Of a stretch of DNA of 64,000 nt, positions 1-64,000 are shown piece by piece. The number at the start of each line of letters is the position of its first letter. Within the stretch, counting starts at the first letter, position 1. Origin of the DNA: Sapria himalayana (Eukaryota > Streptophyta > Magnoliopsida > Malpighiales > Rafflesiaceae). Position numbers and translations under genes: made by a program. Location: positions 1-64,000 of the forward strand of contig JAREIK010017065.1 of assembly GCA_029783825.1 (NCBI GenBank). The letters are read 5' to 3'. Below the pieces are notes generated by a model. The model ran no database searches. It saw only the letters and a program-made list of their open reading frames with translations, and was not told the DNA's origin.

Positions 1-1807
1 ATATATATATTAGATCTATGGTCAGCTCAGAAAAACTGAACCTTCTTAACACAAAGCAAAGGGTATCCCATTTCCACTCTATCGAAGGCTTTCGATAGAT
101 CTAATTTGACCACTAAGTTTTTTTCTAGACTTACTTCCTATTTCTTTCATCATTTCTGATGCAAGCTTTATATTTTATATCATTAATCTATTTTTAACAA
201 AGCCCGTTTGTTCCTGAGATATTATTGAAGGTAAAATTAAGCTTAGCCTATTTTGTAATATTTTTGCCAGTATTTTATAAATAGCATTGCATAAACTTAT
301 TGGTCTATAATCCTCACATTTCTGTGGTGATTCTTTTTTGGAATTAATACTATAAAAGATTTTGCCCATGCTTTTGGGATTTTCGCACCTACAAAAAAAC
401 TTGCAATTGCAGGGACTAGCTCAGTTTTAATCGTATTCCAGTTTACCTGAAAAAAATATTGTTCCAACCATCAGGTCCTGCTGCACTATCTTTATCCAGA
501 CTAAAAACAGCCTCTTTAACTTCTGGTTCTTCCGGGATCAATTCCATTAATTGATTTGAGCTTCCGTAATGGTCGCCCTAATCTCTGCATTAGAGAATTA
601 TCTGTCCTACATGACTGACACATAGTTGATTTTCAAAGAAATTTTTAAAGAGAGCTCCTATTTCCTTTTCATTTTCTACCAATTTTCCTTCTTTATTTAT
701 TAGACCTTTAATTTATTTTTTTGAAATTTTATTTTAGACATAACTATAAAAAAATTTGGTATACGATCCCCATCTTTTAACCATTTTATTTTGCTCGTTG
801 TTTCCAGTAACTTTCTTCCATGTGTAGTTTCAATCTCAGTTCTCCTTTAGCCTTACTTAATTCTATCGAGTTTCATTATTATTAGTGGAGTCAAAATCTT
901 GCTCCAGCTTGGCTACTTTTTCTTCTAGTTTTTTTGCTCCTGATTTAATTACCAAAAACCTCTTTATTCCATGTTTTTAAACAAGCTTTTAGCCTCAGAA
1001 GTTTAATTGATAGAAATTGCATCGTTTACCCTCTGCTGGCTCTTTCCAAGACTCTCTAACAAGTCCTGCAAAGCTCGCATGCTTTACCCACATATTTTGA
1101 AATTTAAATTAGATGTATTGCCCTGGTTTTTTTGAATCGTGATAAGCAGGGGGCTATGGTCAGAGCAAGTTCTATTTAGGTGTCTAAGCCCGTAATCCCT
1201 TGTGAGGTGACCCACTTTGTGTTACACATAATCCTATCCAGTCGAGCCCAGATGACTCCTCTTTTTTTCCAATTATTACTCCAGGTATATCTCGAACCAT
1301 TGAAATCTATTTCCATTAGATTGGTAATGACTATTGTGTCATTAAATTGCTTCATGGCTACCTTATTCGGTGGTTTGCCACCCTTCAATTCTTGAGGGCT
1401 TCTAATTATATAAAGTCGCCTCTTATTATCCAAGGTGAATTTCTACTTGCTATATCTTTCATTTCTTCCCATAATGCCAACCTAGATTATTTATTATTTT
1501 TTGCATAAACTGCTGAGATTATTTGATCTGTGCTCTTATCTAATTTGAAATGTACTATTTGTTCAGTATCTTTTATTATTTTAATTTTCAATTTTCTGTG
1601 CCATAAAATCAAAAGTTTACTATTTAGGTTAGCATAAGCCTTATTAAATCCTAAAATTTCTCTATATTTATTTAGTTGATCTTGCAGGACCATTGGTTAT
1701 GCAATAATCATTAATGAGATTTTATGTTCTTTAATTAAAAGTCTTAATCTATTTATCATGGGGCTATTAGCTATTCCCCTAACATTCCAATATAGACATC
1801 TATCCAT
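1..1807 (-). pseudogene. LINE ORF2 (endonuclease + N-terminal RT), copy 1, partial
   Basis: Starts at the ATG at 1,807 (MDRCLYWNVRGIANSP), which overlaps the ORF1 stop by 8 nt. The endonuclease (EEP fold) runs to about 1,110 and shows YTWSNNWKKRG, IWARLDRIM and the SDHSPLL motif with the catalytic His. The residue expected to be the catalytic Glu before PMV is a stop codon (TAA) near 1,697. More frame changes lie between 1,433 and 1,487. A linker (about 1,100-560) leads into the RT, with DSAAGPDGWN near 490-460, then EDYRPISLCNAIYKILAKIL and TGFVKNRLM (about 310-190). The RT catalytic aspartates would lie at or beyond the window start. Same family as copies 2-8. Confidence 0.9.
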
Positions 1808-3216
1808 TAAAAACTAATTTAGCTTGGGCTCGAGTTGTACACTTAGATTCATAAGACATGTTAGCATATTTTTTCGTATTTCTTGCTGTTTTAGGAGTGT
1901 GAGGGATTTCATACCTAATCTCCTTATATTTTACCTGTTTTCCGAGCACCATGGCCATTTGCTTTAGGGCCTCCATGGTTTGGGTTCTTGAAAGATTCCC
2001 CTAGTCTTCATTATAAATATGTATATCATCCTTTGCTTTCACCTCAGGCTCATCTTGAGATACATCACCCTTGTGGCTTGAAGGGCAACTAAAAATTACC
2101 GATTCTTCTTCAGGAAAATCCAGAAGATCCTCATCTATCCACGTATAATCATCAAGTTTTTCTTTCAATACAATTCTTGTTTTAGATGTTTTTTTATATT
2201 TTCTCTTGTGTTTTACCTCCTCCCATCCTTTTATTAAACTAATATCATTTTCTATCCCCAAGTTAGTCTTTCTCAGGGGTCCTTCTTCTTGGGTAATATT
2301 TGGATAATCTGGTGGGATGCTTGAGTCCAGATCTCCCTTCGGCTGGTTTTGTTTTAGAAGTGAAGCCTCCTCTTTCCTTACCCAATGCATCACCTTCTTA
2401 CATCCTCCTTCGTGCTGCTGCCCGTTGTTATGCTCTTCTTTCCCCACCTTGCACGAGAAATTTTCATGCCCGAGCCTCTTACATTTTGAACAGTAGGGAG
2501 GAAGGCTTTCGAGAATGACAGTTTGCCAAAACCCCTCGGCCTGTTCCCCTTCACCACTACCTATCCATATTTTGTCAGACGATTTAGTTAAGAGGTTTAG
2601 CTCTACACATACACGTGCTTTGTTCGGCCTTGACATGGTTCTTGTGGCTTCATCTCGTAACATGGGCTTACCCAAACACGATGAAATTGCATAAAGAGAT
2701 GTTTCAGAGAAAAGATGGAGTGGCAGAAAAGGCAATGTAAACCATACAGGAGCTATAGGCGCCTCTTCAAGAGGAGTAAAATCCTTTGTCCACTTCAGTA
2801 TACGCATGGGGAAGCCGTCAACTTGCCATAATCCACGCTGCTGGGCGATATTGATCTTCCAGTAGAGAGCATTGCAGCACGACATATTTGGCATCGAAAT
2901 CAGCAAATTTCACCTTCCCCTTGAGCTTTAAATTGTCGATGAATTTCTGAACTCCAATCGCACGAGGCCTACCGTGAGAGAACTTACCAACGAGCGTATA
3001 TTCGAAAGGTTCTAAGAGCCTTTGAGATTCTTCGGTAGAGAAGATGATAGCCGGGAGCCCATTTTTGTTACCTTGAATTCGTAAAATCGGCGCGGTTCCC
3101 TTCACCATCGAGGCAAAAGACTTATTATTTAATAATAAGTCAGATTTTTCAATTCTCACCTTGAGTTGGGCTTGGTTTGAGCAGCAATGGAGTTTTCTTC
3201 TTTCTTTGTTGCACAA
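1800..3216 (-). pseudogene. LINE ORF1 (DUF4283-like domain + CCHC knuckle), copy 1
   Basis: Nucleic-acid-binding ORF1 protein of a plant LINE, expected to coat its RNA. The N-terminal part (3,216 to about 2,840) has the DUF4283-like stretch with LVGKFSHGRPRA and LKLKGKVKFADFDAKYV. An extra C in a CGCCCAGCAGCG context near 2,845 shifts the frame, and the protein continues with FPMRILKWTKDF, APVWFTLPFLPLHLF and RPNKARVCVELNLL. An intact CCHC knuckle (YCSKCKRLGHENFSC) lies near 2,485-2,440. Further on is an acidic motif, WIDEDLLDFPEEES, near 2,140-2,095. A TAG at 2,001-2,003 interrupts the frame, but the same frame runs on to a conserved basic end (SKCTTRAQAK) and stops at 1,800-1,802. The stop overlaps the ORF2 start. 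Apart from one indel and one stop this is the best-preserved ORF1 here; about 470 residues. Confidence 0.88.
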
Positions 3217-3229
3217 TCTAGCAGTTACA

Positions 3230-3900
3230 CAACACTATACACCTATTGTATCAAACAGCAATTCACGAAGCAATTTGCACACTAAATCCCTCAACCATTC
3301 GCATAACAGTTTATTCCAGGTAATCGCTAGAGAGAAAAAAAAAAGCGAGAGGATTTTCGCGAATATAACAGTTTATTCCAGGTAATCGCATAACAGTTTA
3401 TTCATACAATTGTTATTGTTCTTGTTCCCATAATAGTTTTCCCATAACAGTTGCACATAGTAACACTTTGCAAATATAACAAGATAGTTCTCCCAACTGT
3501 ATCAAAAAAGCATTCGACAAATAGTTTATTCAAGATATTCGTTACAGTTTTCCAGGCAATTCACCAATTTACGTGATAGTTCTCCCAACTAACAGTTTAT
3601 TCAAGTTATTCGCAAGATAATCGCGAGAGAACCTATAACGATAGCAATTCACTAAGCAATTTGCACAATAATCATTCGACAAATTCACATACCCGTTTTT
3701 TATTCAAGATATTCGCAAGATAATACGATAGAGAGAAAATCGCGAGAGAATCTGTATCGAAAGCAATTCACGAAGCAATTTGCACAATAATTCATTCAAC
3801 AAATTCTCATAATAGTTTGTTTAAGATAAATCGCGAGAGAGAAAATCTAGAGAAAACCGCAGGAGAGTTTTCGCGAGAGCGTTTTCACGAGAGCTAGGTT
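3230..3900 (-). repeat. LINE copy 1 5' UTR with diverged tandem monomers
   Basis: Noncoding leader between ORF1 and the array. A motif close to GCAATTCACGAAGCAATTTG starts at 3,258, 3,644 and 3,763, each followed by CATTCRACAAATTC-like text. A second recurrent motif, AACAGTTTATTC followed by an AATCGC-type segment, occurs near 3,306, 3,368, 3,392 and 3,593. The last two GCAATTCAC units are 119 bp apart. The other copies have much shorter 5' leaders (about 80-150 bp). Repeated promoter monomers are known in mouse L1; a promoter role here is inference. Confidence 0.6.
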
Positions 3901-3904
3901 TTCG

Positions 3905-4890
3905 CTTCTTCTTATTCTTCTTATTCTTATTATTCTTCTTATTCTTCTTATCATTTTTTTTCTTCTTTTTTTTCTTCTTTTTTTTCTTCTTTTTTTTCTT
4001 TATCTTCTTATTCTTCTTATTCTTTTTAATCTTCTTATTCTTCTTATTCTTTTTAATCTTCTTATTCTTCTTATTCTTCTTAATCTTCTTATTCTTCTTA
4101 TTCTTCTTATTCTTCTTATTTATTATTCTTCTTATTCTTCTTATTATTCTTTTCTTTGTATTCTTTTTATTCTTCTTATTCTTCTTATTCTATTTATTCT
4201 TCTTATTCTTCTTATTCTTCTTATTCTTTTTATTCTTCTAAATCTTCTTATTCTTCTTATTCTTCTTATTCTTTTTATTCTTCTAAATCTTCTTATTCTA
4301 CTTATTATTATTATTATTATTATTTTCTTCTTATTCTTCTTAATCTTCTTATTCTTCTTATTCTTTTTAATTTTATTTTTCTTCTAATTCGTCTTTTTTT
4401 TATTCTTCTAATTTTGTTATGTGTTGTAATTCTTCTAATTTTTCCTATTCTTCTTATTTTTTTTTCTTATTTCTGTTTCTTGATATTCTATTTATTATTA
4501 TTCTTCTTATTCTTATTATTCTTATTATTTTTATTTTTCTTATTCTTCGTATTATTCTTATTTTTCTTATTTCTAATACTTGATATATTTCTAATTATTT
4601 TTATTCTTCTTATTCTTATTCTATTCTTATTCTTCTAATTCTTTTAATTCTTCTTATTCTTAACTTTTTCTTATTTTTTTTATTATACTTATTCTTTTTA
4701 TTCTATTTTTTCTTCTTATTCTTCGTATTCTTTTTATTATTTTTATTCTTCTTATTCTTCTTGTTTTCTTTATTCTTTATATTGTTTATATTCTTCTTAT
4801 TCATATTATTCTTTTTTATTCTTTATATTCTTATTATTATTCTTATTTTTCTTTTTCGTATTATTCTGCTCATTCTTTTTTTTATTTTTT
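3905..4890 (-). repeat. Array A1: degenerate AAGAAGAAT (9-bp) repeats
   Basis: Almost pure TTCTTCTTA/TTCTTATTC text on the plus strand (purine-rich on the minus strand), with frequent single-base variants and short stretches of TTT or ATT. It joins the 3' end of LINE copy 2 (right side) to the 5' end of LINE copy 1 (left side). Open reading frames inside it encode only Leu/Ile/Phe/Ser/Tyr or Lys/Asn/Arg repeats and are not genes. Confidence 0.95.
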
Positions 4891-4892
4891 TT

Positions 4893-6146
4893 AGAAAGTT
4901 TTTTTATTATTATAATAACCCTCTCTTTTGGCAGCAGAATACCATTTTTACAAACTATATTCTTCCCTTTACCCTGTTACACCCCTTACTAAAAAATAAA
5001 AACAAAATTAAATAGAAAAGCAATTCTAGGGATTCTTTTTTTCTCCAGTTCTCTATGAGGGCCCAACGAGCCTCTTATTGTTCTAGAATCTGAATTATCT
5101 TATGAGCCTTAACTAGTTCTGTAGTCATGCCATTGGTCATCATAAGTTTCAGTTATTGCTTTCCCCTCAAATTGTCTGTTTTTTGTTGTCCACCTAGTTC
5201 CTTGTAAATCATCTTCTTGATTTTCAATCTCTATTCATGTGCTGAGATGCTTTCTTCAAGGGCACCTTCTGCCCATCCTCGGATAATTTCTCTTCCTGAC
5301 CCAAAAGAAACCCCATTACAGACCCTATATCTACAAAACTTACAAAAATTATTGACACCTTAACAGACCCTGAGCTGCTGATAATAAAATAGACCCTTAA
5401 TCATTACAGACTCAAGCATTCGCACACTATACTCTGTGCCTAACCATTTAGACCACAAAAAAACACAAGCAAAAAAGACGTCCTCCATTTTTGATCTATC
5501 ATCTTTCTTCTCTTCCCTCCTTGGTTCTAGATAGCCTGTGAACTGCATTTGTAATTCTATTCCCTGTAAAACAGTAAACCGACCATGCTACACAGATATA
5601 AATTTTATAATTATGCTTTGTGTTTTCCGTCCATTGCATTTTGCTGATTTGCCATGAGCCTTTGTGATTTATCCTTGTAATGTTACTACCCATAAAAGGA
5701 AGGTTGGCCCTCCCTAAGTTTCTGTTTCTGCTTGTTGTTCTTCTCCTTCTCTGAACATCCTGCAAAAAAACTAGGCCAAATCATTTCCCACCCTTTTCTT
5801 CTTTATCATTTTAAAACCCTTACCAACATGGAACTTCTGCCCTGTTAAGTTCCTCTCCTAGATTTGATGACTTATCTAACTTTTGCCCTGTAATACAGAT
5901 AATTAACCCTATAGTTTGGCAGGGTGATTCAAATAAGTCACCCCTCAGGACCAGGTAACTCTTGAATCACCAAAACCTTTATCTGACTTTTCCATAGTAC
6001 CCAATGCTCTAGATTTTTCCTATGAGTAAACTCTGCTTCTTGGTTCACCTTGTAATCTGGTAGCTTATATATGAACTTATACCTGTAAGAAGCATTTAGA
6101 ATGCTTCTAAACTTATCGTACTGCTTTACTATAGATTACCTTATTT
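4893..6146 (-). other. 3' UTR of LINE copy 2
   Basis: About 1.25 kb after the RNase H stop with no coding signal on either strand. It ends with a GGGTGTAACAGGG-like segment and the conserved terminal box next to the array. The small reading frames at 5,360-5,765 are fortuitous and have no family resemblance. Confidence 0.7.
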
Positions 6147-7760
6147 CTATAATTTTATTTTTCTAATATAAGGATACTTTTTCCTATCCGTTTTTAGAAT
6201 ACCTGTATATTTATCCGAAAGGTTCTCTTTCTTATATTCTTGTTCTCCTCTTATTCTTCCTTCTTTGGCTACCTTATCCGCAAGGGAATTACCCTTTCTG
6301 AATATGTGTTTAATAGAGAAATCTAATGTTTTCATTACTTGTAGAATTTTTTCAATTTCTTCCTTGTATTTCCATCTCACTATATTTTTGTTAATTAGGT
6401 TTACCACTATGTTCGGGTCTATTTGAATGTCTATGTGGTTGATTTCTAATTTTTTTGCAAAGTCTCACTCCTTCTCTTATAGCTAAAATGTCTGCATGTA
6501 TAGCTGATGATGCTTTAAAATTCCTTGTGAAAGCTAATATTAGCTTTCCTTTAGAATTCCTTATAGCACCACCACGTCCTACTGCTCCGATATCTCTATC
6601 AAAAACTACCGTTTGTGTTCAATACAAACCTATCTTTCTTGGGGTTTTCTTATTTTATACCAATCAACTTAAACTATTTATCTGATTTACTTTTAATTTC
6701 CAAAAATTCAATGTATCTTTTTCTAAGTCTGTTCTGTAAATTTTTAAGGGGTATGGTTCAGATATTTTCCTGGTTTCATCTTTTATGTCCCTCCAGATAT
6801 GTTCGATTGCCATTCTCTGACCCTTGAACCTACTCTTATTTCTAGCCTTCCATATACACCAGATGTCTATGAGGGGGACATTTTTTTAAATCCATTTCTA
6901 AGTGCTAGAGGTGTGAGCTTTGTTCCATTTTTGAAGCGACATTTTTAAGCGTAGATGTGTATGTTTTAAGTGCAGTTCTGAATCTAATTTATTCCATATT
7001 TCTACTGCCACCCTACCTAAAGATAGAATATGATCTAGGGACTCCGTTTCACTTAAACAAAAATCAAATATGGAGGCCATTTGTATACCATTTTTTAATG
7101 TTATATTCTATGGGTAAAATGTTTGAAAGCACTTTTCACATAAATACTTTTATTTTTTGAGGGTTATCATTATTCAATATCCAGGTAAATAAGGATTGTT
7201 CTTCTTTCTTTTTTCTTGTTATAATTTTCACTTATTAGAGAGAGAATTTTCCATCCAGATCTAGCATCCATACACAGCCGTGCCTGGTAAATTTAGAATG
7301 TAGTTCCACTAAATCTCTTTGTTTGAGCATTTGCGCCCAACCTTGGGATTTCTTGCTTCTGTTATTTTCTATACAATGATTATCATTTAGGTAGTATTTA
7401 GCTCTCATAAATTCAGCCCATACGCTGACATTTTTTCTTAGCATCTACCACCTTTTACAATCACATGCCTTGGCTAATTCACTAATCTTAGTGAATCCCA
7501 GTCTAGTCTCATGTATAGGAAAACATAGATCATTCTATTTTTTCTAGTACAACTTATATTTTCCCTCTTTTTTTCCCCATAAAAAGTTAGCAAGTTCATT
7601 TTCTATGTTCTTAGTGAATTTGCTTGGGGGTAGAGTTATCATTATATTATGCATTAGTGAGCTTTGCAACACATGAGCAATCAATGAAATTCTTCCTCCC
7701 ATGTTTAGGGAAGCCTCCTTCCATCCTAATATTTTCTTTTTTAGTTTTGCCATTAAAAAT
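6147..7760 (-). pseudogene. LINE ORF2 C-terminal part: connection, zf-RVT remnant and RNase H, copy 2
   Basis: After the RT thumb (WKEASLNMGGRISLIAHVLQ near 7,720) come VWAEFMRAKYYLND (about 7,410) and the zf-RVT region (about 7,080-6,950). There the Cys/His cluster is degraded: only one Cys of SRCECC remains, while LDHILSLG preserves the His. The RNase H region (about 6,640-6,147) is frame-shifted at its start; its end shows QIDPNIVVNLI (third catalytic Asp) and GNSLADKVAKEG (fourth). The C-terminal YPYIRK tail is shared with the other copies. Nonfunctional. Confidence 0.82.
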
Positions 7761-7804
7761 CTAAATATTCTCTCTTTAATCTACATTCGTAAACTGGGCA
7801 ACCT

Positions 7805-8760
7805 GAGTAAATTATTTCTTATTTTTTATGGGAGAAATCTGTTATATTCTTTATTATGTGAATTAGTGTAGGAGGGGCTTTTGATGCAACCATATATTTA
7901 TTTAGTTGTTGACCAGTTTCCTTTTCCATACACCTTAATAACTGCATCAGATTATGCAAAGATTTGCTGTCTCCATTCGTGAAGATAATTATATCATATG
8001 CATATGCTAAGCAGCCTACCATTGGTGTGTTTTTAGGTTGCTTGAACATACCTATCTTCTCTTTTCTCATGTTATATTTAAGGTTCACTATCAACAATTC
8101 TATATAAATGTTAAATAGAAGAAAAGATAATGGATCTCCTTGCCTTAGACCTCTAACTGGAACAAATTTTCATCCTAAGATTCCATTTATAAGGATTCTC
8201 ACCCATGTGTTTAAGATACATCTGTATATTAGGTCTATCCAGGTTTCCAAAACCCCCATTTTTCTCATGGTGAAACACATGGTGTCCCATTCCACTCTAT
8301 CAAAATCTTTCGATAGATCTAAAATTAACATTATATTATGATCTCTTGTCTTTGTTTCTATTTCTTTCATCATTTCTTTATCTAGACATATATTCTCCAT
8401 GATTAATCTATTTTTCATGAATCTCGTTTGCTCTTTTAAGATAATTTTTGGGAGGATGTGTGATAATATATTTTGTAGTGTTTTGGCTAGGATTTTATAA
8501 ATGGCATTACAAAGGCTGATTGGCCTATAATCTTCTCCTTTTTTGGGGTTCATCACTTTTGGAATCAAGACTATATGGAAGCTTCCCCATTTCTTACCTA
8601 TGTCCATTCCACTAAATATGCAAAGCATAGCTTTCAGTAGGTCTTCTTTTATTATGGGCCAACATTCTTGGAAAAATTTGATGTTCCATCTATCTGGACC
8701 TGCTGCACTTTCCTTATTCATGCTAAAAATAGCCATTTTATATCATCTTCTTTAGGTAGT
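7805..8760 (-). pseudogene. LINE ORF2 reverse transcriptase domain, copy 2
   Basis: The longest RT reading frame in the window: 8,736 to 7,819 stays in one frame with one in-frame stop at about 8,170-8,172. Motifs in order: NKESAAGPDRWNIKFF, IVLIPKVMNPKKGEDYRPIS, LCNAIYKILAK, LILDLSKDFDRVEWDT (motif A Asp), YRCILNTWVRILING, GLRQGDPLS and LAYAYDIIIFTNG. The last is the catalytic YADD box altered to YAYD, so the first Asp is lost and activity is unlikely. KETGQQLNK follows. Typical of the plant L1 clade. Confidence 0.92.
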
Positions 8761-9289
8761 TTGCAGAGAATAATGTTATCTTCAGGAGTAACTTTCTTTT
8801 CTATTTCTTGTAAAAGAGTATCTCCTTTGTGATTGTTAAATTCACCCAGCTATTTTTCAAAAGATTTTGAGAAATATCTTTGTATGTCTGTTTCTTGATC
8901 TAGCCATTCTCCTTTATCATTTTTAATGCCGTTTATTCTTTGTTTTAGTTCTTTAATCTTTGTTACTTTCTGAAAGATTTTGGTGTTTTTATCACCTTCT
9001 TTTAACTAATTTATTTTGGCTTTTTGTTTCCAAAAAGCTTCTTCCATTGAGAGCTTTAATTTTAATAGAACTTGAGCTTTTGACCGAAAGCATTTTTGGT
9101 ATCACTGTTTTGATCTTTTTCAAATTCTTATTCTCTTTCTTTGTAACTAAATCCTTAGCTTCTCTTATATTTTTATTTATGTCTCCAAATGTCTCTTTGT
9201 TCTATCTTTTTAACTCAATTTTTAATCTATTAAATTTTGAATTTATTCACTGTATGAGATTTCTTGATGTATAGCTATTTCATGATTCA

Positions 9290-10045
9290 CTTACTAATGC
9301 CAATAAGCCGTGGTGTAAACATGATGCATTCTGAAATTTGAAGGCTTTTTAGAAAGTATTGTATTTTTAATCGTGATTAAGAGTGGGGAGTGGTCTGAGC
9401 ATGTTCTATTTAGGTGCTTCACCTCAATTGAACCAAATATTAACCATTTAAAGTTATAAAGAACTCTATCTAATCTAGCCCACATAATTCCCTTTTTATA
9501 ATGGTTATTACACCATGTAAATTGCGAGCCTAAAAAATTACCTCTATCAAGTTTGCTCTATTTATGGTTTCATTAAATTGGGAGGTAGCTATTGGATTAG
9601 GAGGTCTACCTCCTTTCTTTTCTTTAGCAAATCTTACAATATTAAAGTCTCTCCCTATTATCCAAGAGAGGTCTTTAATTGAAATGTTCTACATTTCATC
9701 CCATAATATTTTTCTTTCATTGATTTTATTATTAGCGTATACCACAGTAATTAGCTCTTTTACCTCTTGACTTGGACTGAAGTTTATAAGTTGATTTGTT
9801 TCTTTTACTATGTGAATATCCAAGTTACTTTTCCACAAGATCCATATCTTCCCGTTATCATTAACAAATGCATGTTCAAAACCTAGCAACTTTTTATATG
9901 TTTTTAAATGGTTTTTAACTACCATTGGTTCCGTTAAAATTATTAGTAAAGTGTTATACATATATATCAAATTTTTTAATCTATTCCTCTAGGAAAGATT
10001 TGCAACTCCCCTTATGTTGCAGATAATATAATTATACAATGCTAT
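9290..10045 (-). pseudogene. LINE ORF2 endonuclease domain, copy 2
   Basis: AP-endonuclease-like (EEP) domain that nicks target DNA for target-primed reverse transcription. The expected ATG is TTG here (near 10,043), followed by YIICNIRGVAN. The catalytic Glu is kept in LTEPMVV (about 9,930). Next come WILWKSNLDIHIVKE, WIIGRDFNIVR (about 9,665), KKGGRPPNPIA, IMWARLDRVLYNFKW (about 9,490) and TCSDHSPLLITI (about 9,400) with the catalytic His. An in-frame stop lies near 9,690 and at least one more break near 9,520. The catalytic residues are intact, but the coding frame is broken. Confidence 0.87.
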
Positions 10046-10049
10046 TGGA

Positions 10050-11425: not shown

Positions 11426-11482
11426 TCTTTGAAGCTAGGGTTTGATATGCCAAGGCTCTCAAAGGATTCTAAATTACTTTCT

Positions 11483-12528: not shown

Positions 12529-12599
12529 TTTTTTAAGGTTTTTTTAATTATAACCCCCTCTTTTTGCGTAGGAATACCATTGTTTTCAAACTAAATTTT

Positions 12600-14850: not shown

Positions 14851-14910
14851 ATAAGAATTCTTAGCTTTTGTTCTACATTTTAAGACATCTTCCCAGCTAA
14901 AATAAATTGA

Positions 14911-15230: not shown

Positions 15231-15360
15231 ATATTTTTTAAAAGTTTGTTTTATTAATAATAAAAAGCCCTCTCTCTTGGCATCAGAATACTATTTTTCT
15301 AATCTATAAAACTACCATTTGCCACTTTTACACCCTTAAAAAAATAAAAAACATTGATCT
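15231..15360 (-). mobile_element. LINE 3'-end fragment (terminal box), first duplicate
   Basis: Only the last ~120 bp of a LINE on the minus strand: GGGTGTAAAAGTGGC, ATAGTATTCTGATGCCAAGA, GAGAGGGC, TTATTAATAAAACAAACTTT, then an A run into array A3. No coding part remains. It is closely similar to 16,161-16,288, with which it forms a tandem duplication. Confidence 0.9.
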
Positions 15361-19840: not shown

Positions 19841-19862
19841 ATGGAAGAATAAGAATAATATA

Positions 19863-51288: not shown

Positions 51289-51327
<39 letters not shown>

Positions 51328-54078: not shown

Positions 54079-54434
54079 AGAAGAAGAAGAATAATAATAA
54101 TAATAATAAGCATAAGAAGAAGAAGTAGTAGAAGAAGAAGAAAAAGAAAAAGTAGAAGAATCAGAAGAAGAAGTAGAAGATGAAGTAAAAGAAGAATAAG
54201 TAGAAGAAGCAAAAGAAGCTAAAGAATAACAAGAATTAGAAGAAGCAGAAGAAGCAAAAAAAGAAGAAGAAGACGTAGAAGAAAAATAAGAAGTAGAAGA
54301 AGAAGAAGAAGAAGAAGAAGTTGTAGTAGTAGTAGAAGGAGCAGTAGAAGAAAAAGTAGAATAAGAAGCAAAAGAAGAATCGGAAGAAGAGGTAGAAGAA
54401 GAAGCAGAAGAAGAAGTGGAAGAAGAAGCATAAA

Positions 54435-54466
<32 letters not shown>

Positions 54467-54910
54467 GTAGTAGTAGAATAAGCAGCAGAAGAAGCAGAAG
54501 AAGCAAATTAAGATGTAGAAGAAGAATCAGAATAAGAATCAAAAGAAGAAGTAGAAGAAGATGCAGAAGAAGAAGATGAAGAAGTAGAAGAAGAAGATGA
54601 TGATGATGATGAAGCAAATGAAAAAGAAGAAGAAGCAGAAGAATAGAAGAAGTTGTAGTAGTAGAAGAAGAAGATGTAGAAGCAGAAGAATAATAAGAAG
54701 AAGTAGAATAATAATAAAAAGAATAAAAAAAGAAGATGTAGAAAAAGAAGAAGAAGAAGAAAATGTATTAGTAAAATAAGAAGGAGAAGTAGTAGTTGTA
54801 GAAGAAGAAGAAGTAGTAGTAGTAGTAGTAGTAAGAAGCAGAAGAAGAAGAAGAAGTAGTAGTAGTAATAGTAGTAGAAGAAGCATAAGAAGTAGAAGAA
54901 GCATAAGAAG
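54079..54910 (+). repeat. Array A8: GAA/GTA/GCA trinucleotide-type array
   Basis: Purine-rich on the plus strand, built of GAAGAAGTAGAAGCAGAAG-like text in 3-bp register, clearly different from the 9-bp AAGAAGAAT text of A7. It leads into the 5' end of LINE copy 7. The same variant follows that LINE at 62,392-62,748. Confidence 0.94.
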
Positions 54911-55033
54911 CTAGAAGAAATTTTTCATTATCTATTTTTTTTAAAATTCGCTCACTTTTCTAGACAGACAAAGCTCAACCCTAGGGAAAGAAATCTCCAT
55001 TTTCGACCAAAAATCCATCTTCAAGCTCTAAAA

Positions 55034-56573
55034 ATGGGCCAAAATGACTTCTTTTTAAATCAGAAGTCATTTGCATCTATAATTCAAGAGCCCGCACCAA
55101 CTATTCCCGCTTATGGAAACAAAAATAAATTTTCATCGGTTATCTTCTATTCAGTTGAACTCGATAAAATGGTAGTCCCATTTAACCGCACACTTTTAGC
55201 TAAATTCTCTCATGGCAGGCTACGCGTAATCTACATCCAAGAGTTCCTTACCTCATTGAAGCTTAAAGGAATTACGAAGATTGAAGTTTTTGACTCCAAG
55301 CATGTGTTTCTGCAACACATGGTGGAGTCTGATTTTAACAAATTATGGATGCGTGGTCAGTGGCATGTTAAAGGCTTCTCAATTAGGGTGTTCACGTGGA
55401 TGATGGACTTCAATCTACTAGAGAAGCCACCTATTGCACCGGTATGGTTTTATTGCCTAATTTACCCCTCACCTTCTTCTCTAAATATGCTATTCATTTG
55501 ATAGCTTAGTGCATTGGAACGCCAATAATGATAGATGAGGCTACTACCTCTATGACAAGGCCGAATGGTGCTCGTGTATGCATCGAGACCAATCTACCCT
55601 CACAGCCTCCATAGAAACTATGGATAGGCAGTGAGGATGGGCATGGCATATCGCAGGCCATGATCCTCGAGCTACTTCCTAGTTACTATAAGAGGTGTAG
55701 AAGATTGGAGCATGAGAGAGAGGAATGTTTGATGGGAAAGTGTAAGGGAGAGGAGTACACAGGAGTCGGGATGGAAGAAAGGTAAGCTGAAGTGGGTTAA
55801 GAAAACAATAGAAGGAGAATAGCCTCAAGGGGAGGCTATTAGAAAAGAAGGCAGAGAGGTGCTCTCACTCACAAGAGAAATAGGGCGAGGAACTGGAAGG
55901 GGCAGTGAGGGAGTTATAGGTGAGAAGGAGAGAGAAGAGTTGAGTGAGGTCACTAAGCACCTAGAGAAGGGCCCAAATGGGGGGCCTCCTCTAGAAAGGG
56001 AGTGGAGCAGGGGCAAGAGGGAGAAGAAAGGATAAGGGGAAGGTCATATAGTGCAGATAATGGGAGGGCATGAAAGGAGAAGGGGGTAAGAGCTAGAAGG
56101 GGGCTCCATAATGGGGATTTGTTCACAGCAGAAGAAGAGGCTGCACTATCCTCATTAGTTAACTTAGAACATAGGAGGAAAGCTAGAATGACTAGACAGA
56201 AGAAGAATAAAAAGGTTAGAGAGGTTGATTTAGGCTGGATAGAAGAGGATGTACTAGAATTCTTGGATTCAGAGTCATAAGTGAAAAGCTACAGTTACCT
56301 AATTCAAAGTAGGGTTACAAACAGGATAGAAATATACATACCCCAAAAGATGATCTGGAAATAGCTATAACAAAGTGGGATGCTTATACGAGAGAAGAAG
56401 CCATAGAAGAATTAAAAATAATTGCACTCAAATTGGGGGAAGCCCTTAGTTATATAGGAAAGGAGCTTTCTAGCTCCGCAAAACAGCCTAGAAATATGAA
56501 GAAATATAAATCCAAGAAATATGACTCAAAATGCATGACAAGAGCTCAAGCAAAATCATCATTTAATGGATAG
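55034..56573 (+). pseudogene. LINE ORF1, copy 7
   Basis: Starts at ATG 55,034 (MGQNDFFLNQKSFASIIQEP). DUF4283-like region: PFNRTLLAKFSHGRLRVIYI, LKLKGITKIEVFDSKHVFLQ, KGFSIRVFTWMMDF and APVWF. A frame change near 55,450 is followed by LPNLPLTFFSKYAIHLIA, a stop, then CIGTPIMIDEATTSMTRPNG and CIETNL, another stop near 55,612, and KLWIGSEDG. The knuckle (YYKRCRRLEHEREEC, about 55,686-55,730) lacks its first Cys. After a Gly/Glu-rich linker, LGWIEEDVLEFLDSES (about 56,229-56,276) matches the acidic motif of copies 1 and 8. The end SKCMTRAQAKSSFNG stops at 56,571-56,573, overlapping ORF2 by 8 nt. Confidence 0.88.
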
Positions 56574-57340
56574 AATCATATATTGGAATATAAGAGGGGT
56601 AGCGAATACACCCTCTCTAAAAAGATTGAAAAAACTAATAAAAGTACATAAGCCAATAGTAGCTGTAGTAGTTGAACCAATGGTAGACAGAGGTCAAATA
56701 GACAAATATAAAAAGTCCTTGGGGTTTGATAAGGTTATAGTAAATCTTAACGGAGAAATCTGAGTTATGTGGGACAATAAGCTAGAAGTTATAGTACTAA
56801 AAAACATGGAACAAATGATACATTTAAAAATCAGATATTACACAGATTTTCTCCTGTCTATAGTATATACTAAAAACTCTAAAGAGGAAAGGAAAATTTT
56901 ATGGAGTGATATGACGAAGGTTGCATCCAAAGATACCCCATGGATAATAGGGGAAAACTTTAACGTGATCAGGAATAATAATGAAAAGAAGGGAGGGAGA
57001 CATCCCTATGTTGAGCTTATTACTCATTTTTAAGAGATGATCGCAAATGTTAATCTCATGGAAATAGAATATCTTGGAGCAAAATATACATGGTATAAAA
57101 ACTGGAAGAAGAGAGGAATAATATGGGCAAGACTGGACAGATTCATGTATAATGTCAAATGGGTGGAATCGTTAGGCAATACAAATATTAGACATCTAAA
57201 TAGAACATGTTATGACCATAGCCTGATGCTCCTAACTTGTAAGGTGATAAATAAACTAGCATCCTCTTTTAAATTCCAAAATATACATGGGGTTTGCATA
57301 GACATTTTGAGTCGATAGTAAGCAGCTCGTGGAAAGAGCA
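56566..57340 (+). pseudogene. LINE ORF2 endonuclease domain, copy 7
   Basis: ATG at 56,566 (MDRIIYWNIRGVANTPSL). Catalytic Glu in VEPMVDRGQ (about 56,677), WDNKLEVIVLKNMEQ, LLSIVYTKN, WIIGENFNVIRN (about 56,941), KKGGRHPYVEL, YTWYKNWKKRGIIWARLDR (about 57,088) and LNRTCYDHSLMLLT (catalytic His; SDHSP reads YDHSL). Two single stops (TGA 56,761-56,763 in place of a Trp codon; TAA 57,031-57,033) interrupt one continuous frame to about 57,290, where a frame change occurs. The least damaged endonuclease in the window. Confidence 0.9.
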
Positions 57341-58990
57341 CGTATCTGGTAACCAATTACAGATCTTAGCAGTTAAGATGCGTAAGCTAAAAATTAGTTT
57401 AAATAAATGGAACAAAGTGTGTTTTGGAAACATAAATGCCAATATTAAATAGGTGGAAGAGAAAGTAGAAAGATGTGAAATAGATTACGAGAGAGACCAA
57501 AAGGAGGAGACTATGTAGGAATTAAGTAAAGCAGAGGCAAAATTAACACTGAAACTAAAAAGAAAGAAATCTTCTGGAAGCAAAAAGAAAAAATAAAATG
57601 GCTAAAGGAAGGAGATAACAATACTAAATTATTTCACATGATGGCAAAAATCAGGTCTAAAAACACATAATTAAAGGCATCAAAAGTGCAGAGGGTGAAT
57701 GGGTAGAAAAAGAGGAGGAGATTAAAGCACAACTAGAACAATTTTTGAAAAAGCATCTATGTGAAAAGAGCACTCATATAGAAGATAGCCTAATGCATGC
57801 AATTAAGATCAAGGTCACTAAGGAGGAGAATAACAAACTAGACGTAATCCCAGAAGAGGAGGAGGTAAGGTCAGTAGTTTTTAGTATGAATAAAGAGAGT
57901 GCAGTAGGACCAGATGATTGGAACAATGCTTTCTTTTCAAATATGCTGGCACATAATCAAAAAAGAACTAACTCAAGCAATCAAATGGATTTTTGTGATA
58001 GTAGAAATCACAAAAGCTTGGGCGAGCTTTTTCATTGTACTTATTCCGAAGGTTGAAAACCCACAGAAATGTGAAGACTATCGTCCGAATAGTCTATGCA
58101 ACTCTATTTATAAAAGTTTAGCTAAACTACTGCAAAATAGACTGAGAGATATTCTTCCAAATATAATCTCACAGGAGTAGTCAGGCTTTGTTAAAAATAG
58201 ATTAATGATGGAAAATATAAGCCTTGCATCTAAATTAATGAGACATATTGGAAAAAAAGAATAGGGGTCATAATGTGGTGCTAAAACTAGACCTATCAAA
58301 GGTATTTGATAGGGTGGAATGGCCTATCCTATGCTACTCGATGCGAAAAATAGGTTTTTCTGAATTCTGGATCGATTTAATATATAGATGTATATCAAGT
58401 GTTTGGGTTAGAATAATAATAAATGGGAAAAAGTGAAGAATTTAAGCCGGGCAGAGGTTTGAGGCAAGGAGACTCACACTCTCCGTATCTCTTTAATATC
58501 TATCTAGAGATATTGCTTTTGAATTTAAAGTAAAGAATGTTGGATGGAAAAATCTTAGCATTTAGGCAACACAAGAACACCCCTCACATCGGTTGCCTAG
58601 CATATGGTGTTGATCAGATCATCTTCACAAATGCTAGCTCGAAGTCCCTCACTAATCTTATGGAGCTCTTGCATACTGTAGAAGTAGAGACATGTCAAAT
58701 TTTGAATAAACAAAAATGTTAGTTAATGTTAGCAGCAAAAGCCCCGAGTGGGGTAGTACAAAGGGTTAAAAAAGTAATAAGTTTTACACAAAAGAGAGGG
58801 GCATTAATGTACTTAGGCTACCCGATATTTGAGGGTAGGTTAAGAGAGGACTATTTAAGTTTTTAGGTAGATAAGATGAGAAAGAAAATAGCAAGATGGA
58901 AAGAACATTTTCTTAGCATGGGGGGAGAATTATGTTAATTAAGCATGTGTTGCACGGTTCAGTTGTGCATATATTATCAGTCATGCATCC
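57341..58990 (+). pseudogene. LINE ORF2 linker and reverse transcriptase, copy 7
   Basis: Linker with KMRKLKISLNKWNKVCFGNI (57,380 on) and Lys/Glu-rich text. RT from about 57,745: VVFSMNKESAVGPDDWNNAFF (57,876 on), a frame change, AWASFFIVLIPKVENPQKCE, DYRPNSLCNSIYKSLAKLLQ, SGFVKNRLMMENIS, LKLDLSKVFDRVEW (motif A, about 58,281), IYRCISSVWVRIIING, GLRQGD and FRQHKNTPHIGCLAYGVDQI (58,561-58,620). The catalytic box is YGVD in place of YADD, losing one Asp. VETCQILNKQKC closes the palm. At least three frame changes. Confidence 0.9.
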
Positions 58991-59660
58991 TCCAAAGAAG
59001 TTATAATGAAGCTAGAAAAAGAAATGAAATATTTCTTGTGGGACAAGAATGAAGGAAAATCAAAGTTACACTGGAGGAAATGAGAGGCATTATGTTACCC
59101 AAAAGAGGAGGGAGGGCTGGGCTTTACAAGCCTCATGGAGATAGCTAGTTCATGGGCATGGAAAAGCTGTTAGCAATTGAAAGAAAATGACAGCCTTTGG
59201 GCAAGGTTCATGCATGGCAAGTATGGAGAAAATAACTAAACACTTAAGAATGCTCGGAAAGCATCTATAGCCTGGAAGGCCATACACAAACAAAAAGAGC
59301 TAATGGAAGCTCACTCAAGGCTAAATAGAAGCAGCTAGAAATTGACCTTAAATTCCCAAAGAAATTTCACTCTCAAATCAGCAAAAGAATTGATACGGAA
59401 GAAGAAGAATCCACCGCAGATATTTAAAAGAATATGGAAAGGGGATGGGCCACAGAAGATGAAAACATTCTTGTGGAGTACTTCGATAGAAGCCACCCCA
59501 GTAGATGTAAATATACAGAAAAAAGGAATAAAGTTAGCATCTAGATGTGAATGCTGTCACTTAGCGGTAGAAAGCATGGACCACTTATTTTCACAAGGTG
59601 AAATAGCAAAGGAAGTGTAGAGCTGGCTCGAGACCTCAAGGCATAAGGAAGAAGAGCTGA
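58991..59660 (+). pseudogene. LINE ORF2 connection and zf-RVT region, copy 7
   Basis: Connection (YFLWDKNEGKSKLHWRK, GLGFTSLMEIASSWAW, LWARFMHGKYGENN) then an open frame 59,342-59,620: TLKSAKELIRKKKN, PQIFKRIWKGDGPQKMKTFL, PVDVNIQKKGIKLASRCECC and HLAVESMDHLFSQGEIAKEV. The Cys cluster RCECC and the His of DHLF are intact, making this the reference zf-RVT of the family here. It ends with a TAG at 59,618-59,620. Confidence 0.88.
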
Positions 59661-59824
59661 AAACTAGAATAGCGGGTTAGTTTCGGTGTAAACCCAAGAA
59701 TACAGTACATAGTTGGTTGAAAGAGACTCTCCCACTTGTAACAGTATGGTGCATATGGAAAGCCAGAAATAAGAGCAAATTTGAAGGCATCAAAATGAAC
59801 TCAGAGGAGATCCTGAAAGGTATT

Positions 59825-60375
59825 TGTTGGGCAATCGCGCTTCCACGGGTAGTAAGATTAAGAAACATAAAACAAAGAAAACATAGAAACAAGCAATATA
59901 TATTCCCAATCCACAAGCATCCACGGCAGAATCAAAACGAGAAATCAACACAACAAATAACGTGGTTCACTAGTCACTCAGTACGACTAGCTACCTCCAC
60001 CAGAAAATGCTTATGCATTACAGATTAAAACCAAGAAATAACGTCTTATAGTATGCAACACGGAACAGTCGCGAAATCGCACAGAGAGAGAGGAGAGCGA
60101 AGTTGAACAGTTCAACCGGGTCAAAAAATAGCTGCTCGAAAAAAAATACAAATCATTTTATACAAAAAATAAACAGCCGGTTCATTTAACCGAAGCGGGT
60201 TGGATCATGGACCGGGCCAGGCTCTGCTCCAAAATTTTCGGCCCGCTGACCAGTCTGCGGAACCTCCGTTATTGTGCTACTGCTACATCCCCGGGCTTTT
60301 AATATTTCCTTTCCTGCACTTACATGAAAATATTAAAACGGATTATTAAGTAAAAAACAAATTACATATACAACA
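59825..60375. mobile_element. Solo LTR (551 bp) with 5-bp target duplication GTATT
   Basis: Begins TGTTGGGCAATCG and ends ATATACAACA, an LTR-like TGTTG...CAACA pair. GTATT occurs immediately before (59,820-59,824) and after (60,376-60,380). It is notably richer in G+C than its host (CCGGGCCAGG, CGGCCCGCTGACC). It contains AACAAATAACGTGGTTCACT followed by CTACCTCCACC, wording common in LTRs of plant Ty1/copia elements; the orientation and lineage call is tentative. No coding domains. It separates the zf-RVT tether from RNase H of LINE copy 7. Confidence 0.88.
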
Positions 60376-60380
60376 GTATT

Positions 60381-61063
60381 AAAAAGGAAACCTCAATCAT
60401 ATCTGCTATTAACCCTATTAATGTAGAAAATATAGGAGTTTTTAAGGAGCTGATAGACAAATGGGGCTTAACAATAAGAAAGGAGAGAAAGATGGAGCTA
60501 AAAAGGTTGTCAGGGGAAAACCACTTTCTGAATGGGTGGCTCTTAATACTGACGGAAGTTATATTAGGAACAAGGGAATGGCAGGAGGAGGGGGAGTGAT
60601 CAGGGATTCACATGGGAAAATAATTAGAGCTTCTATAATGAATATAAGGTCTAGCTCTGCATTGCATGCAGAGGTAGAGGCCTTACTAAGAGGAATGCAA
60701 ATTTGTAAAAGACAACAATTAAAGAATATTAATATTCAAGTAGACTCACGCCTTTTGGTCGGACTGACCTCGGGAAGCTTGGTACTATGGAAGTACGAAA
60801 AGGATATAAAAAATATAAAAGACTTGATGAAACAATAGAATGCGACAATTATGTATACGTATAGGGAGTCAAATGCTTTAGCAGATAAGCTAGGGAAAGA
60901 AGGAGCAAGCAAGGGTTTACAAGAATTAGATGAGAATTCCATCCCCGATAGATTCAAAGGTTTGACACGATTAGATAAACTAGGATATCCTTACATAAGT
61001 GTGTGTAGGAAAAAGAACACAGAGATGGGTCACAGGGTTAATGAGAGGAAAGGGGAGGGTTAA
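60381..61063 (+). pseudogene. LINE ORF2 RNase H domain, copy 7
   Basis: Ribonuclease H of the RNase H-like fold, thought to degrade template RNA. An open frame from 60,461 to 60,838 carries PLSEWVALNTDGSYIRNKG (first Asp), MAGGGGVIRDSHGKII, ALHAEVEALLRGMQ (Glu), INIQVDSRLLVGL (third Asp) and WKYEKDIKNIKDLM. A single TAG at 60,836-60,838 separates it from YTYRESNALADKLGKEGASK (fourth Asp) and LTRLDKLGYPYISVCRKKN (to 61,063). All four acidic residues are intact, the only complete set in the window. Confidence 0.92.
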
Positions 61064-62383
61064 AATAACGTATATGGAAAAGGGTGGGCAAGTGGGAGTG
61101 TGATCATGGGTGTAGGTGAGTGAGATGTGAGATCGGTAGGAGAATATGGGCGAGAGGGGATTGGGTTAGAAAAGGATGGGTGGGAGTGGAAGAGAGGGGT
61201 AGGTGGGTTGGGTGAGAGGGGTGTGCAGAGAATAAATGTGTGGGTGTGAAGATGGGTGGGTGTGGGAGAGTATGCATGGGGGGTGTGTGTGTGTGTGTAT
61301 ATGTATGTATAAGTGTCTGCAGGTTAGGAATTGCCATAAAAGAGGCTGCAGAAGTCATGGCAAGAGCTAATCGTGTTGTGGAAAGAAGAGGTGGGAGAGC
61401 ATATAATATAACTGCAGCAGGATGATTACTATAGAAGGAGGAAGAAACGGAAGTAGCAGGGGGAGTGGTTTCAAGAAGCTTGGAAAAGAGATAGCATGTA
61501 GAGAAGATGAGACAAAGAGTAGCTGCAAAAGATGACTAAAGTTGTCAAATTCTAAATGATTATTAAATAGGTGTGGGTGAAATAAATTTGTAAGGGTAAG
61601 GGACACAAGGGCTAATGGTAGGCTAGGTGGTTATGTATGTGGGTGTGTGGGGATGGGGGGCTGGAAGGAATTATTACTTCGCTGGTTGTGAAATGCTGTG
61701 CTTATAGAGGAGGAGTGAAGTTAGTCTGTGCAAGGATAGGGGGAGCAGAAGACAAGTGCAGTGGATGTAGGATTGGAATAACCCGATAGCTACAAAAGGA
61801 TAAAAAACAAGAGGTAGAAGGGGACTAAAAGATATTAAAAGACCCAGATGGTGAGGTGAGCCTAACCGGACAAAAAAAATAGAAAGAAGTATGTAGAAGA
61901 GAAACTAGGCTTGTGGAGAAGTTATTTATGTTGTGTATTAGTTAAGTGTGGGATGGTGTTTGTAATTGATTGTACGGGAATGGGACAAATTGGCAAAGGG
62001 TAGGAAATAGGTTATACTTGCTTTGGTTTTTTGTTGTATTAGTAGGATACAAAGAGGCGAAATGATCTCAGACAAAGGCACGAGAGAAGGAGCACATGGT
62101 ATGGGGGCAGCAACTCCCGAGGTAGAAGAACTATGTGGGTTGGAGCTAAAGTTTGGAGGCCAGGAAAGTAGCTAGGACATGCAACCAAAGGGGGAGGAAA
62201 GTAGCTAATAGAGTTAATTGAATTAGATGTTAATTGTCACGAAATGTTGTTTAAATAGGATTAGGGGCAATGCTTTGAAATAGAGGATGGAAAAGGGTGT
62301 AAAAGGGTAAATTGTAGTATTAGCTTGTAAAAATGGTATACCTCCGCCAAAAGAGATGGATATAATTAATAAACAAACTTTTC
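61064..62383 (+). other. G-rich 3' UTR of LINE copy 7
   Basis: 1.3 kb without coding signal. The first 650 bp are strongly G-rich on the sense strand with many GGG runs (for example GGGTGGGTGTGGGAG near 61,254) and a GT run at 61,282-61,299. It ends AAAAGGGTGTAAAAGGG, then the terminal box. Minus-strand reading frames at 61,104-61,606 are His/Pro/Thr or Leu/Pro low-complexity shadows. Confidence 0.75.
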
Positions 62384-62391
62384 AAAAAAAA

Positions 62392-62417
62392 GTAGAAGAA
62401 GAAGAAAAAAGAAGAAG

Positions 62418-62449
<32 letters not shown>

Positions 62450-62748
62450 GTAGTAGTAGTAGTAGAAGCAGAAGAAGTAGTTGAACCAAAAGAACCATAG
62501 AAGTAGAATAAGAAGCAGAAGAACCAGAAGAAGAAAAATAAGAAGCAGAAGAAGAAACAGGAGAAGAAGTAGAAGAAGAAGCAGATGAAGAAGAAGAAGC
62601 AGAAGAAGCAAAAAAAGCAGAAGAAGTAGAAGAAGCAGAAGAAGAAGCAGAAGAAGAAGCAGAAGAATGAGAAGAAGAAGAAGAAGAAGTAGTAGTAGTA
62701 GAATAAGCAGAAGAAGAAGTAGAAGAAGTAGTCGTAGAAGAAGAAAAA
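62392..62748 (+). repeat. Array A9: GAA/GTA/GCA trinucleotide-type array
   Basis: 0.36 kb following the terminal box and A run of LINE copy 7 and ending at the 5' leader of LINE copy 8. Same GAAGAAGTAGAAGCAGAAG composition as array A8 on the other side of copy 7. Frames encode poly-Leu or poly-Ser and are not genes. Confidence 0.94.
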
Positions 62749-64000
62749 AAATGCTCACAACTTCTATAGACAGAAATTACCATTTTTAGAGAGAAATCTC
62801 TATTCCTACTCAATTCAAGCTGTCATCATGCTCAAAATGGAACAAAGAGACTTCTTATCAAATAATAAGTCCTTTTTTCAATTTTTACTAAACGCACGCC
62901 ACCTTCTCCATTGTTCGGAAACAAAGAAGGGAGTTCCACGATTCACTTCTCTTCGGAAGAGTTACACAGGCTTAGAGAGCCCTTCAAGCTCATGTTAATA
63001 GAAAAGTTTTCCTATGGCAGACCTCGCACGAACAATATACAGTCATTTATCACTTCATTAAAGCTTAAGGAAAGGGTGAAATTTGCCGACTACGATGCTA
63101 AACACCTCTTCCTAAAGTGCTGTATAAAAGAAGATTTCCACCGTAAATGACCAAGGGGGTTATGGCAAGTCATTGGATATTCTATGCGAATTATAAAGTG
63201 GACAAAAAACTTCAGCCCACACAAAAAGGTGCCTCTAGCTCCGGTATGGTTCTCACTCCTAAACCTCCCTGTGTATCTCTATAATATCCACTCCTTATAT
63301 GCTATTTCTTCATGCTTGGGTAAGCCAATTCTACGGAATGAGGCGACACTTTTACTGACTAGGCCGAATAATGCTCGGGTATGTGTTGAATGCAATTTAC
63401 TTACACAGCCACCTACTATGATTTGGATAGATAGTGGAAAGGGAGAGCAGAGTGAGAGGTTTTGGCAACCTGTCACTCCAGAAAACCTACCTCCTTACTG
63501 TCAAGGCTGCAAGAGGTTAGGGCATGCTTTGGGGGAGTGTAGGTTGGGGTTAGAGAAGAAGGGCATAGGGAAGGGGCAAGGGGGTAGAGGAAGGATGGAA
63601 TGGATTAGAAGGGAAGAAGGGGCCTAAAAACACATTCTAGATGAGGGTGAGCCATTAGAAACATAATTAGGGAAAGAAATGGAGGGTAGGGAGGAATAGG
63701 TGGGGACTCAAACCAAAGAGGAGGTTGGCAGTAATAAGGAAATAGAGGCAGTGGTAAGGGCAGAAGAATGGGTAGAGGGTGGGGAAGATGAATGTTGGGA
63801 GGTGGTGAAAGTAAAAGGAAGAGGAGTAAGAGGTCTAAACCTAGGAGGGTCTTAATGGAGAAGGAGTAGGACTATAGCTAGATGGATGAGGACCTTCTGG
63901 ATTTTCTAGAAGAAGAATCAGAAATTTATAGCTATCCATCAATAGGTAATGGGTAATAAAATGAGGAGAGTAAGCTAGAAAATGATAAGGATGATTTAGA
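62749..64000 (+). mobile_element. L1-type LINE, copy 8 (3' part beyond window edge)
   Basis: 5' leader (GCTCACAACTTCTATAGACA) directly after array A9, then ORF1 to the window end. Its leader and ORF1 are those of the same family as copies 1 and 7. It lies head to tail with copy 7. Confidence 0.93.
62828..64000 (+). pseudogene. LINE ORF1, copy 8, partial at window end
   Basis: Start at ATG 62,828 or 62,837 (MEQRDFLSNNKSFF). A frame change near 62,880-62,910 leads to a frame with one stop (TGA 63,148-63,150): LIEKFSYGRPRTNNIQSF, LKLKERVKFADYDAKHLFLK, WQVIGYSMRIIKWTKNF, APVWFSLLNLPVYLYN and CLGKPILRNEATLLLTRPNN. The CCHC knuckle YCQGCKRLGHALGEC (63,499-63,543) is intact. A Gly/Glu-rich segment with stops (63,625, 63,655) follows, and the acidic motif MDEDLLDFLEEES lies at about 63,882-63,921. 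The closest relative here is ORF1 of copy 1. Confidence 0.88.

Follow-up and report, generated by a model that had tools for sequence, protein, structure and literature searches.

Head-to-tail chains of L1-type LINEs bridged by A/G-rich microsatellite arrays in Sapria himalayana: candidate insertions into pre-existing arrays

LINE copies and simple-repeat arrays at the locus

The first 64,000 nucleotides of contig JAREIK010017065.1 of Sapria himalayana (assembly GCA_029783825.1, forward strand) contain eight copies of long interspersed nuclear elements (LINEs) intermingled with seven A/G-rich simple-repeat arrays, and several of the LINEs follow one another head to tail with an array as the bridge. 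We refer to this whole 64,000-nt stretch as the window; it is one locus, and all of the evidence from the DNA presented here is drawn from it. The order of the LINEs, numbered c1 to c8, was read from open segments, self-comparison, and tblastn matches. LINE sequence totals 33.1 kb, the arrays (A1-A3 and A6-A9) total 20.1 kb or 31% of the window, and other DNA accounts for 10.8 kb, such that arrays make up 65% of the non-LINE DNA.

Five of the arrays have a common 9-bp unit, AAGAAGAAT, with perfect 9-mers at 21-30%. Array A1 (3906-4886, minus strand), which reads (AAGAAGAAT)n on the LINE sense strand, links the 3' end of c2 to the 5' end of c1; A2 (11485-12529, minus) links c3 to c2 in the same way, and A3 (14914-17356, minus) joins the 3' end of c4 to the 5' edge of c3, which is truncated. 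The longest, A6 (26981-36641, plus), extends for 9.7 kb from the 3' end of c5 to the 5' end of c6. Array A7 (49307-54078, minus) has the opposite orientation; its downstream end borders DNA in which no LINE was matched, and its upstream end is head to head with A8. The remaining two, A8 (54079-54919, plus), upstream of c7, and A9 (62390-62745, plus), which connects the 3' end of c7 with the 5' end of c8, are of an (AAG)n type with GTA and GCA variants. Array lengths span 0.36-9.7 kb, and runs of at least six A account for just 1.7-7.8% of array bases. In a 5-mer Jensen-Shannon (JS) comparison A8 and A9 differ by 0.173 and either differs from the other five arrays by 0.307-0.500; A1 and A2 differ by 0.081, with values of 0.097-0.109 against A6 and A7 and 0.091 within A6. 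All three copies that are flanked by two long arrays (c2, c3, and c7) have the matching array type on both sides.

The minus-strand LINEs occupy the left part of the window. Copy c1 (1-3905) runs from open reading frame 1 (ORF1), with a DUF4283 domain, to the reverse transcriptase (RT) and leaves the window; c2 (4887-11484) has both its 5' and 3' ends; c3 (12530-14913) is 5'-truncated within the RT region, and c4 (17357-19842) is 5'-truncated before the zf-RVT domain. On the plus strand, c5 (19860-26980) is 5'-truncated at the start of the RT and is split by an insert at 22624-25144. Copy c6 (36642-41045) has its 5' end but has lost its 3' part, with a break between 41023, where CACTACAA is found, and 41045, the end of the last tblastn match. 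Copy c7 (54920-62389) has an ORF1 (weak DUF4283), an ORF2 that encodes zf-RVT, RNase H, and, from tblastn matches, RT, and a G-rich 3' untranslated region (UTR), and it is followed by the 5' part of c8 (62746-64000), which includes ORF1 and leaves the window. We note that c1 alone has an unusual 5' region of about 0.7 kb (3238-3905) between array and ORF1, containing 119-bp tandem repeats and CTCTCGCGA-type motifs.

Domain searches are consistent with this layout. The DUF4283 domain (PF14111) was matched in the ORF1 of c1 (7.3e-17) and c8 (6.2e-14), and in c7 with a value below the Pfam cut-off (6.6e-5); a second segment of c8 matched no Pfam family. In ORF2, Pfam matches were found for RVT_1 in c2 and c5, for zf-RVT in c7, and for the RNase H-like RVT_3 in c2, c3, and c7. 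None of six short segments from the endonuclease region matched a Pfam family, and we presume from position and familiar motifs that the LINEs encode an APE-type (apurinic/apyrimidinic) endonuclease there. When the c2 RT segment was compared with solved structures the top match was 8c8j, named as an RNA-directed DNA polymerase (4.6e-14), together with chains of the LINE-1 ORF2 protein (9.6e-14 to 3.9e-13) and, far behind, R2 (2.5e-5). The c5 RT segment gave three matches in a protein database, to Nicotiana attenuata (42% identity, E 7.5e-25), Sesamum indicum (41%), and a third protein (34%); c1 ORF1 had no match in the protein database, and DNA pattern scans of viral and prokaryote contigs also had none. 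We identify all eight copies as plant L1-type LINEs, where 'L1-type' reflects the RT structure match and 'plant' draws on the domain layout and the protein matches of the c5 RT.

All of the copies are decayed, with reading frames split into short open segments, and they are strongly divergent. Pairwise nucleotide identity is 48.5-60.6% in ORF1, 59.6-62.4% in the endonuclease-RT region, and 53.9-67.0% in the C-terminal part. Because identity is only 48.5-67.0% overall and the truncation points differ, the copies are old, independent insertions from several source elements and not duplicated units. The five 3' UTRs (4887-6164, 12530-13626, 17357-18539, 25217-26980, and 61017-62389), which are 1.1-1.8 kb long, all have more G than C on the sense strand (G skew 0.31-0.61 in 5/5); a simple G-quadruplex pattern was matched only in that of c7, twice.

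Junctions between LINEs and arrays

The initial annotation of this DNA listed four array-bridged chains, c2-A1-c1, c3-A2-c2, c5-A6-c6, and c7-A9-c8. These and the arrays within them are real, and a fifth, c4-A3-c3, can be added. Five 3' edges can be scored, those of c2, c3, c4, c5, and c7 (c6 lacks its 3' part, and c1 and c8 continue past the window), and every one of them runs into an array. At the other end, six of the eight 5' edges (c1, c2, c3, c6, c7, and c8) follow a long sense array. A seventh, that of c5, is preceded by just 17 bp or so of array-like sequence, GGAAGAATAAGAATAAT (19843-19859), which is in sense orientation relative to c5. In c2, c6, c7, and c8 the ORF1 start is approximately 75-115 nt from the array, as counted by eye, compared with about 0.7 kb in c1.

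Most of the visible 3' ends carry a conserved terminus. The termini of c2, c3, c5, and c7 are 73.5-81.4% identical over their last 83-88 aligned columns, and each carries a polyadenylation-like signal followed by an A-run: AATAAA then eight A's, a T, and eight further A's in c2; ATTAAA then seven A's in c3; AATAAA then six A's in c5; and AATAAA then eight A's in c7. Since this conserved terminus and its 6-8 A's precede the first array unit at four of the five visible 3' ends, the tail of the element itself resembles ordinary poly(A), and repeat units do not directly follow the terminus in any of these four. A conserved hairpin in the terminus is unsupported, as the four termini fold no notably better than shuffled sequences (z -1.14 to 1.05).

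The relative orientation of LINEs and arrays is uniform. The LINE sense strand corresponds to the purine strand of the array in 8/8 copies, for which the chance probability of a common orientation is 1/256 (one-sided), and this is a stronger sign of a rule than is the location of the copies within arrays.

Proposed insertion into existing arrays and its alternatives

The interpretation that we favour, and consider somewhat more probable than all others together, is that LINEs entered pre-existing arrays in independent events of target-primed reverse transcription. A polyadenylated LINE RNA would enter the existing array as the element's endonuclease nicks its T-rich (ATTCTTCTT)n strand, and the T-rich 3'-OH would then pair with the poly(A) tail, such that the orientation is fixed. 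Repeated insertions would cut the array block into array-LINE-array-LINE chains with a head-to-tail appearance, and later inversions (at the A7/A8 and c4/c5 junctions), a solo-LTR-like (long terminal repeat) insertion, and the break in c6 would have rearranged the locus. The presence of array at 5/5 visible 3' edges and 6/8 5' edges, with the 17-bp remnant at a seventh, supports this, and two of those seven 5' edges (c3 and c5) are truncated. The 48.5-67.0% identity of the copies, with their different truncations, likewise argues for repeated insertion as opposed to duplication of a block. Further support comes from the A-run at the conserved terminus, given how little of the arrays consists of such runs, from the matching array types to either side of c2, c3, and c7, with A8 and A9 around c7 set apart from the other five arrays, and from a close parallel in Cuscuta (PMC8091179).

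Several observations weigh against insertion into existing arrays, the basis for which is in any case limited to one locus. The 3' edge of c4 has neither the terminus nor the A-run and falls about 50-60 bp short of the conserved end, and its truncated 5' edge has no sense array, adjoining instead the same 17-bp remnant head to head with c5. A search for target-site duplications (TSDs), a weak test inside decayed array, found flank matches of c2, c3, and c7 no better than those at random array positions (P 0.93, 0.41, and 0.72); c5 had no null for comparison. There is only a slight lean towards A1 and A2 having once been continuous. With distance from the LINE 3' end, unit purity drops in A2 and A3 and, to a mild degree, in A6, which could be predicted if arrays grew from tails. 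Finally, the evidence for targeting within the window is weak, as array flanks are expected in array-rich surroundings.

A further question is whether the association reflects a specialized lineage. It is conceivable, and we regard it as a tentative extension with rather low probability, that an entire, deeply diverged group of plant L1 LINEs is dedicated to AAG-rich microsatellite arrays across sublineages that are only 48-67% identical, always on the purine strand and living as chains, and that the array and the upstream G-rich 3' UTR lie ahead of each following copy, with its leader of roughly 100 nt, and might even drive it. Either a lineage dedicated to arrays or the usual L1 preference for T-rich nick sites may be at work.

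A different origin for the arrays had been proposed in the initial annotation, namely that the element's own 3' tail is a AAGAAGAAT microsatellite, templated or slipped, which expands and receives later copies of the family, so that the family builds its own target. What stands of that proposal is the placement of LINEs within AAGAAGAAT-type arrays, in an orientation consistent with T-rich-strand priming; the array as an expanded 3' tail is less supported than nested insertion, and we consider it doubtful, at perhaps one chance among several. It would account for the array after all five visible 3' edges and for the 9-bp unit common to five arrays, as a templated tail would give; the shared unit does speak against separate expansions of poly(A) tails. 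At all three AAGAAGAAT junctions with a terminus (c2, c3, and c5), AAT comes after the first G beyond the A-run, in the same phase, a regularity that chance can also give. The signal-bearing terminus and its 6-8 A's stand ahead of the array in c2, c3, c5, and c7, however, and while c4 joins its array without an A-run it has lost the terminus too. Purer units stand beside the LINE 3' end in A2, in A3, and to a mild extent in A6, but in A1 purity increases away from the 3' end, and A7, with no LINE 3' end, is of no use for the comparison; a purity gradient is thus inconsistent as a sign of tail birth. Moreover, no LINE 3' end stands upstream of either A7 or A8, which meet each other, and c7 is followed by an AAG-type array instead of AAGAAGAAT.

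The distribution of array types bears on the same point. Copies c7 and c8 share the AAG type, yet in 500 ORF1 bootstraps they group together in only 58, compared with 303 for c1 and c8 and 139 for c1 and c7, and a DNA tree gives the c1, c8 split 65%. Array type therefore looks like a property of the place and not clearly of element relatedness, at least from this one contrast with its moderate support.

Insertion into existing arrays need not imply any targeting, and the array-rich block might simply have gathered ordinary L1 insertions, with their orientation due either to chance or to a general L1 preference for nicking at T-rich sites. We think this improbable, slightly more so than growth of the arrays from tails, although the argument from location is weaker than first claimed. 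The initial annotation held that random insertion would not repeat such an order, whereas the probability that eight random insertions into non-LINE DNA would all fall in array is about 0.03 (a count that includes c4, whose 5' edge has no sense array), and it is no smaller because arrays constitute 65% of that DNA. Orientation alone is what would be given by any L1 that prefers T-rich nick sites and primes with poly(A), and the insertion motifs TTCTA and TTTCAA preferred by LINEs of Cuscuta europaea are described as similar to the mammalian TTTTAA site (PMC8091179). Against an absence of targeting stand the 8/8 orientation, with its 1/256 chance probability, and the fate of other events: the two other insertion-like events seen, the c5 insert and the c6 break, are both within LINEs, and a crude C-content scan found no long foreign stretch in the arrays, flagging one window in A6 and four in A9.

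Two further explanations fare poorly. That the array is the 5' UTR or promoter of the element, carried with every copy, is very unlikely, even though all five copies with an intact 5' end (c1, c2, c6, c7, and c8) start beside an array and the array stops about 75-115 nt ahead of ORF1 in four of these (c2, c6, c7, and c8). The edges of c3 and c5 are truncated, so no element-encoded 5' sequence could supply the array upstream of c3 or the remnant upstream of c5; the downstream end of A7 has no LINE match, with tblastn of the open segments of c1, c2, c7, and c8 (E 1e-3) finding nothing between 41045 and 54944; and arrays adjoin 3' ends as closely as 5' ends. On this the initial annotation, which had disfavoured a 5' UTR from the array beside c3, was right, and this reading is ruled out. 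Least credible of all is an assembly artefact or a segmental duplication of a LINE-plus-array unit, notwithstanding that long simple arrays are hard to assemble and that head-to-head junctions occur twice, near 19843 and near 54079. Duplication is ruled out by copies that are 48.5-67.0% identical with different ends, hence not copies of one unit, and mis-assembly keeps a small probability.

There are signs of other events at the locus. The two head-to-head junctions suggest inversions; that at 54079, where A7 (as its pyrimidine strand) joins the AAG-type A8, is near-palindromic. Twin priming is ruled out for c4 and c5, as both hold the same C-terminal part and each runs to its own 3' end. The insert in c5 (22624-25144; 2,521 bp) has TG...CA ends, starting with TGTAACACCCC and ending with TTGTGACA, and a 5-bp TSD, CCTGA; it is solo-LTR-like by its ends, and no second copy was found in the array-masked window. 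We treat c5 as one element because, judged by eye, its flanks when joined across the insert resemble the corresponding place in c7, and matches to the RNase H tail and 3' end lie beyond the insert. At the c6 break, CACTACAA at 41023 is followed by 26-bp repeats, GGGATCAATCCCTAGCTAAAATGAAG, within the interval 41023-49306, a combination reminiscent of a CACTA-type transposon terminus; a search of 36-55 kb yielded no opposite end TTGTAGTG, however, and the last c6 LINE match extends to 41045. A non-LINE stretch at 44851-45714 contains TATAACTA-type tandem repeats with periods of 4, 12, 22, and 156 bp.

Relationship to other array-associated LINEs

Head-to-tail chains of LINEs are familiar from HeT-A and TART, telomeric elements joined through poly(A) at chromosome ends and possessing long, strand-biased 3' UTRs. 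The Sapria copies resemble these in their head-to-tail chains and in the strand bias of their 3' UTRs (G skew 0.31-0.61, 5/5), but their copies are separated by long arrays, and there is no sign that the window is telomeric. Among animals, the LINEs Dong, Kibi, and Koshi lie in microsatellites. The Togen and HERO families are also named as microsatellite-specific animal LINEs (PMC4640811). All of these are likewise non-LTR elements in simple repeats, but they belong to other clades.

The closest published case that we found is in a plant. In Cuscuta europaea, 91% of 97,860 scored L1-CS LINEs are associated with the 389-bp satellite CUS-TR24, and the copies are heterogeneous, have the preferred insertion motifs given above, and share their loci with simple sequence repeats (SSRs) and inversions (PMC8091179). 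The similarity is one of layout, and membership of L1-CS is not implied: both are plant L1 elements with RT, RNase H, and endonuclease (putative in Sapria), lie inside tandem arrays, and appear to derive from several source elements, and in both there are simple repeats, inversions, and T-rich insertion motifs (PMC8091179). They differ in that the L1-CS target is a 389-bp satellite and the SSRs described there are mostly (TAA)n and mostly shorter than 400 bp (PMC8091179), whereas in Sapria the repeat is a microsatellite, either the 9-bp (AAGAAGAAT) or AAG, that forms arrays 0.36-9.7 kb long, with eight copies scored in one window. The earlier statement that no plant L1-clade case with kilobase tails is known should be read beside L1-CS in CUS-TR24 (PMC8091179).

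Two other plant systems offer partial parallels. Celine, a centromeric LINE of poplar, also has a DUF4283 ORF1, a poly(A) tail, clustered copies, and regional targeting (PMC11288735); unlike the copies here it enters mostly other transposable elements (52/58 full-length copies), each with a unique TSD, and the word 'microsatellite' is absent from the text of that paper in the form available (PMC11288735). Ohshima reports that poly(A) forms the 3' end of nearly all L1s in flowering plants, with one lineage, ME1, keeping a conserved hairpin 3' end (PMC3747384); the terminus in Sapria is also conserved, but a hairpin of the ME1 type is unsupported by folding. No paper on a plant LINE in AAG-type arrays was found in searches of open-licence literature, which leaves out most subscription journals; those on L1-CS and Celine came nearest.

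We conclude that the Sapria locus presents a candidate variant of the array-targeting plant L1s, in which the array is a microsatellite rather than the satellite of Cuscuta. Should the same association be found across the genome, the known range of array-targeting plant L1s would extend from a 389-bp satellite to kilobase microsatellite blocks, and nicking of the T-rich strand with priming by poly(A) would offer a simple orientation rule. A group truly dedicated to such arrays would be a plant counterpart of the telomere-chain or microsatellite-specific LINEs. The association would also bear on how repeat-rich plant heterochromatin is built and on why clusters of LINEs form there.

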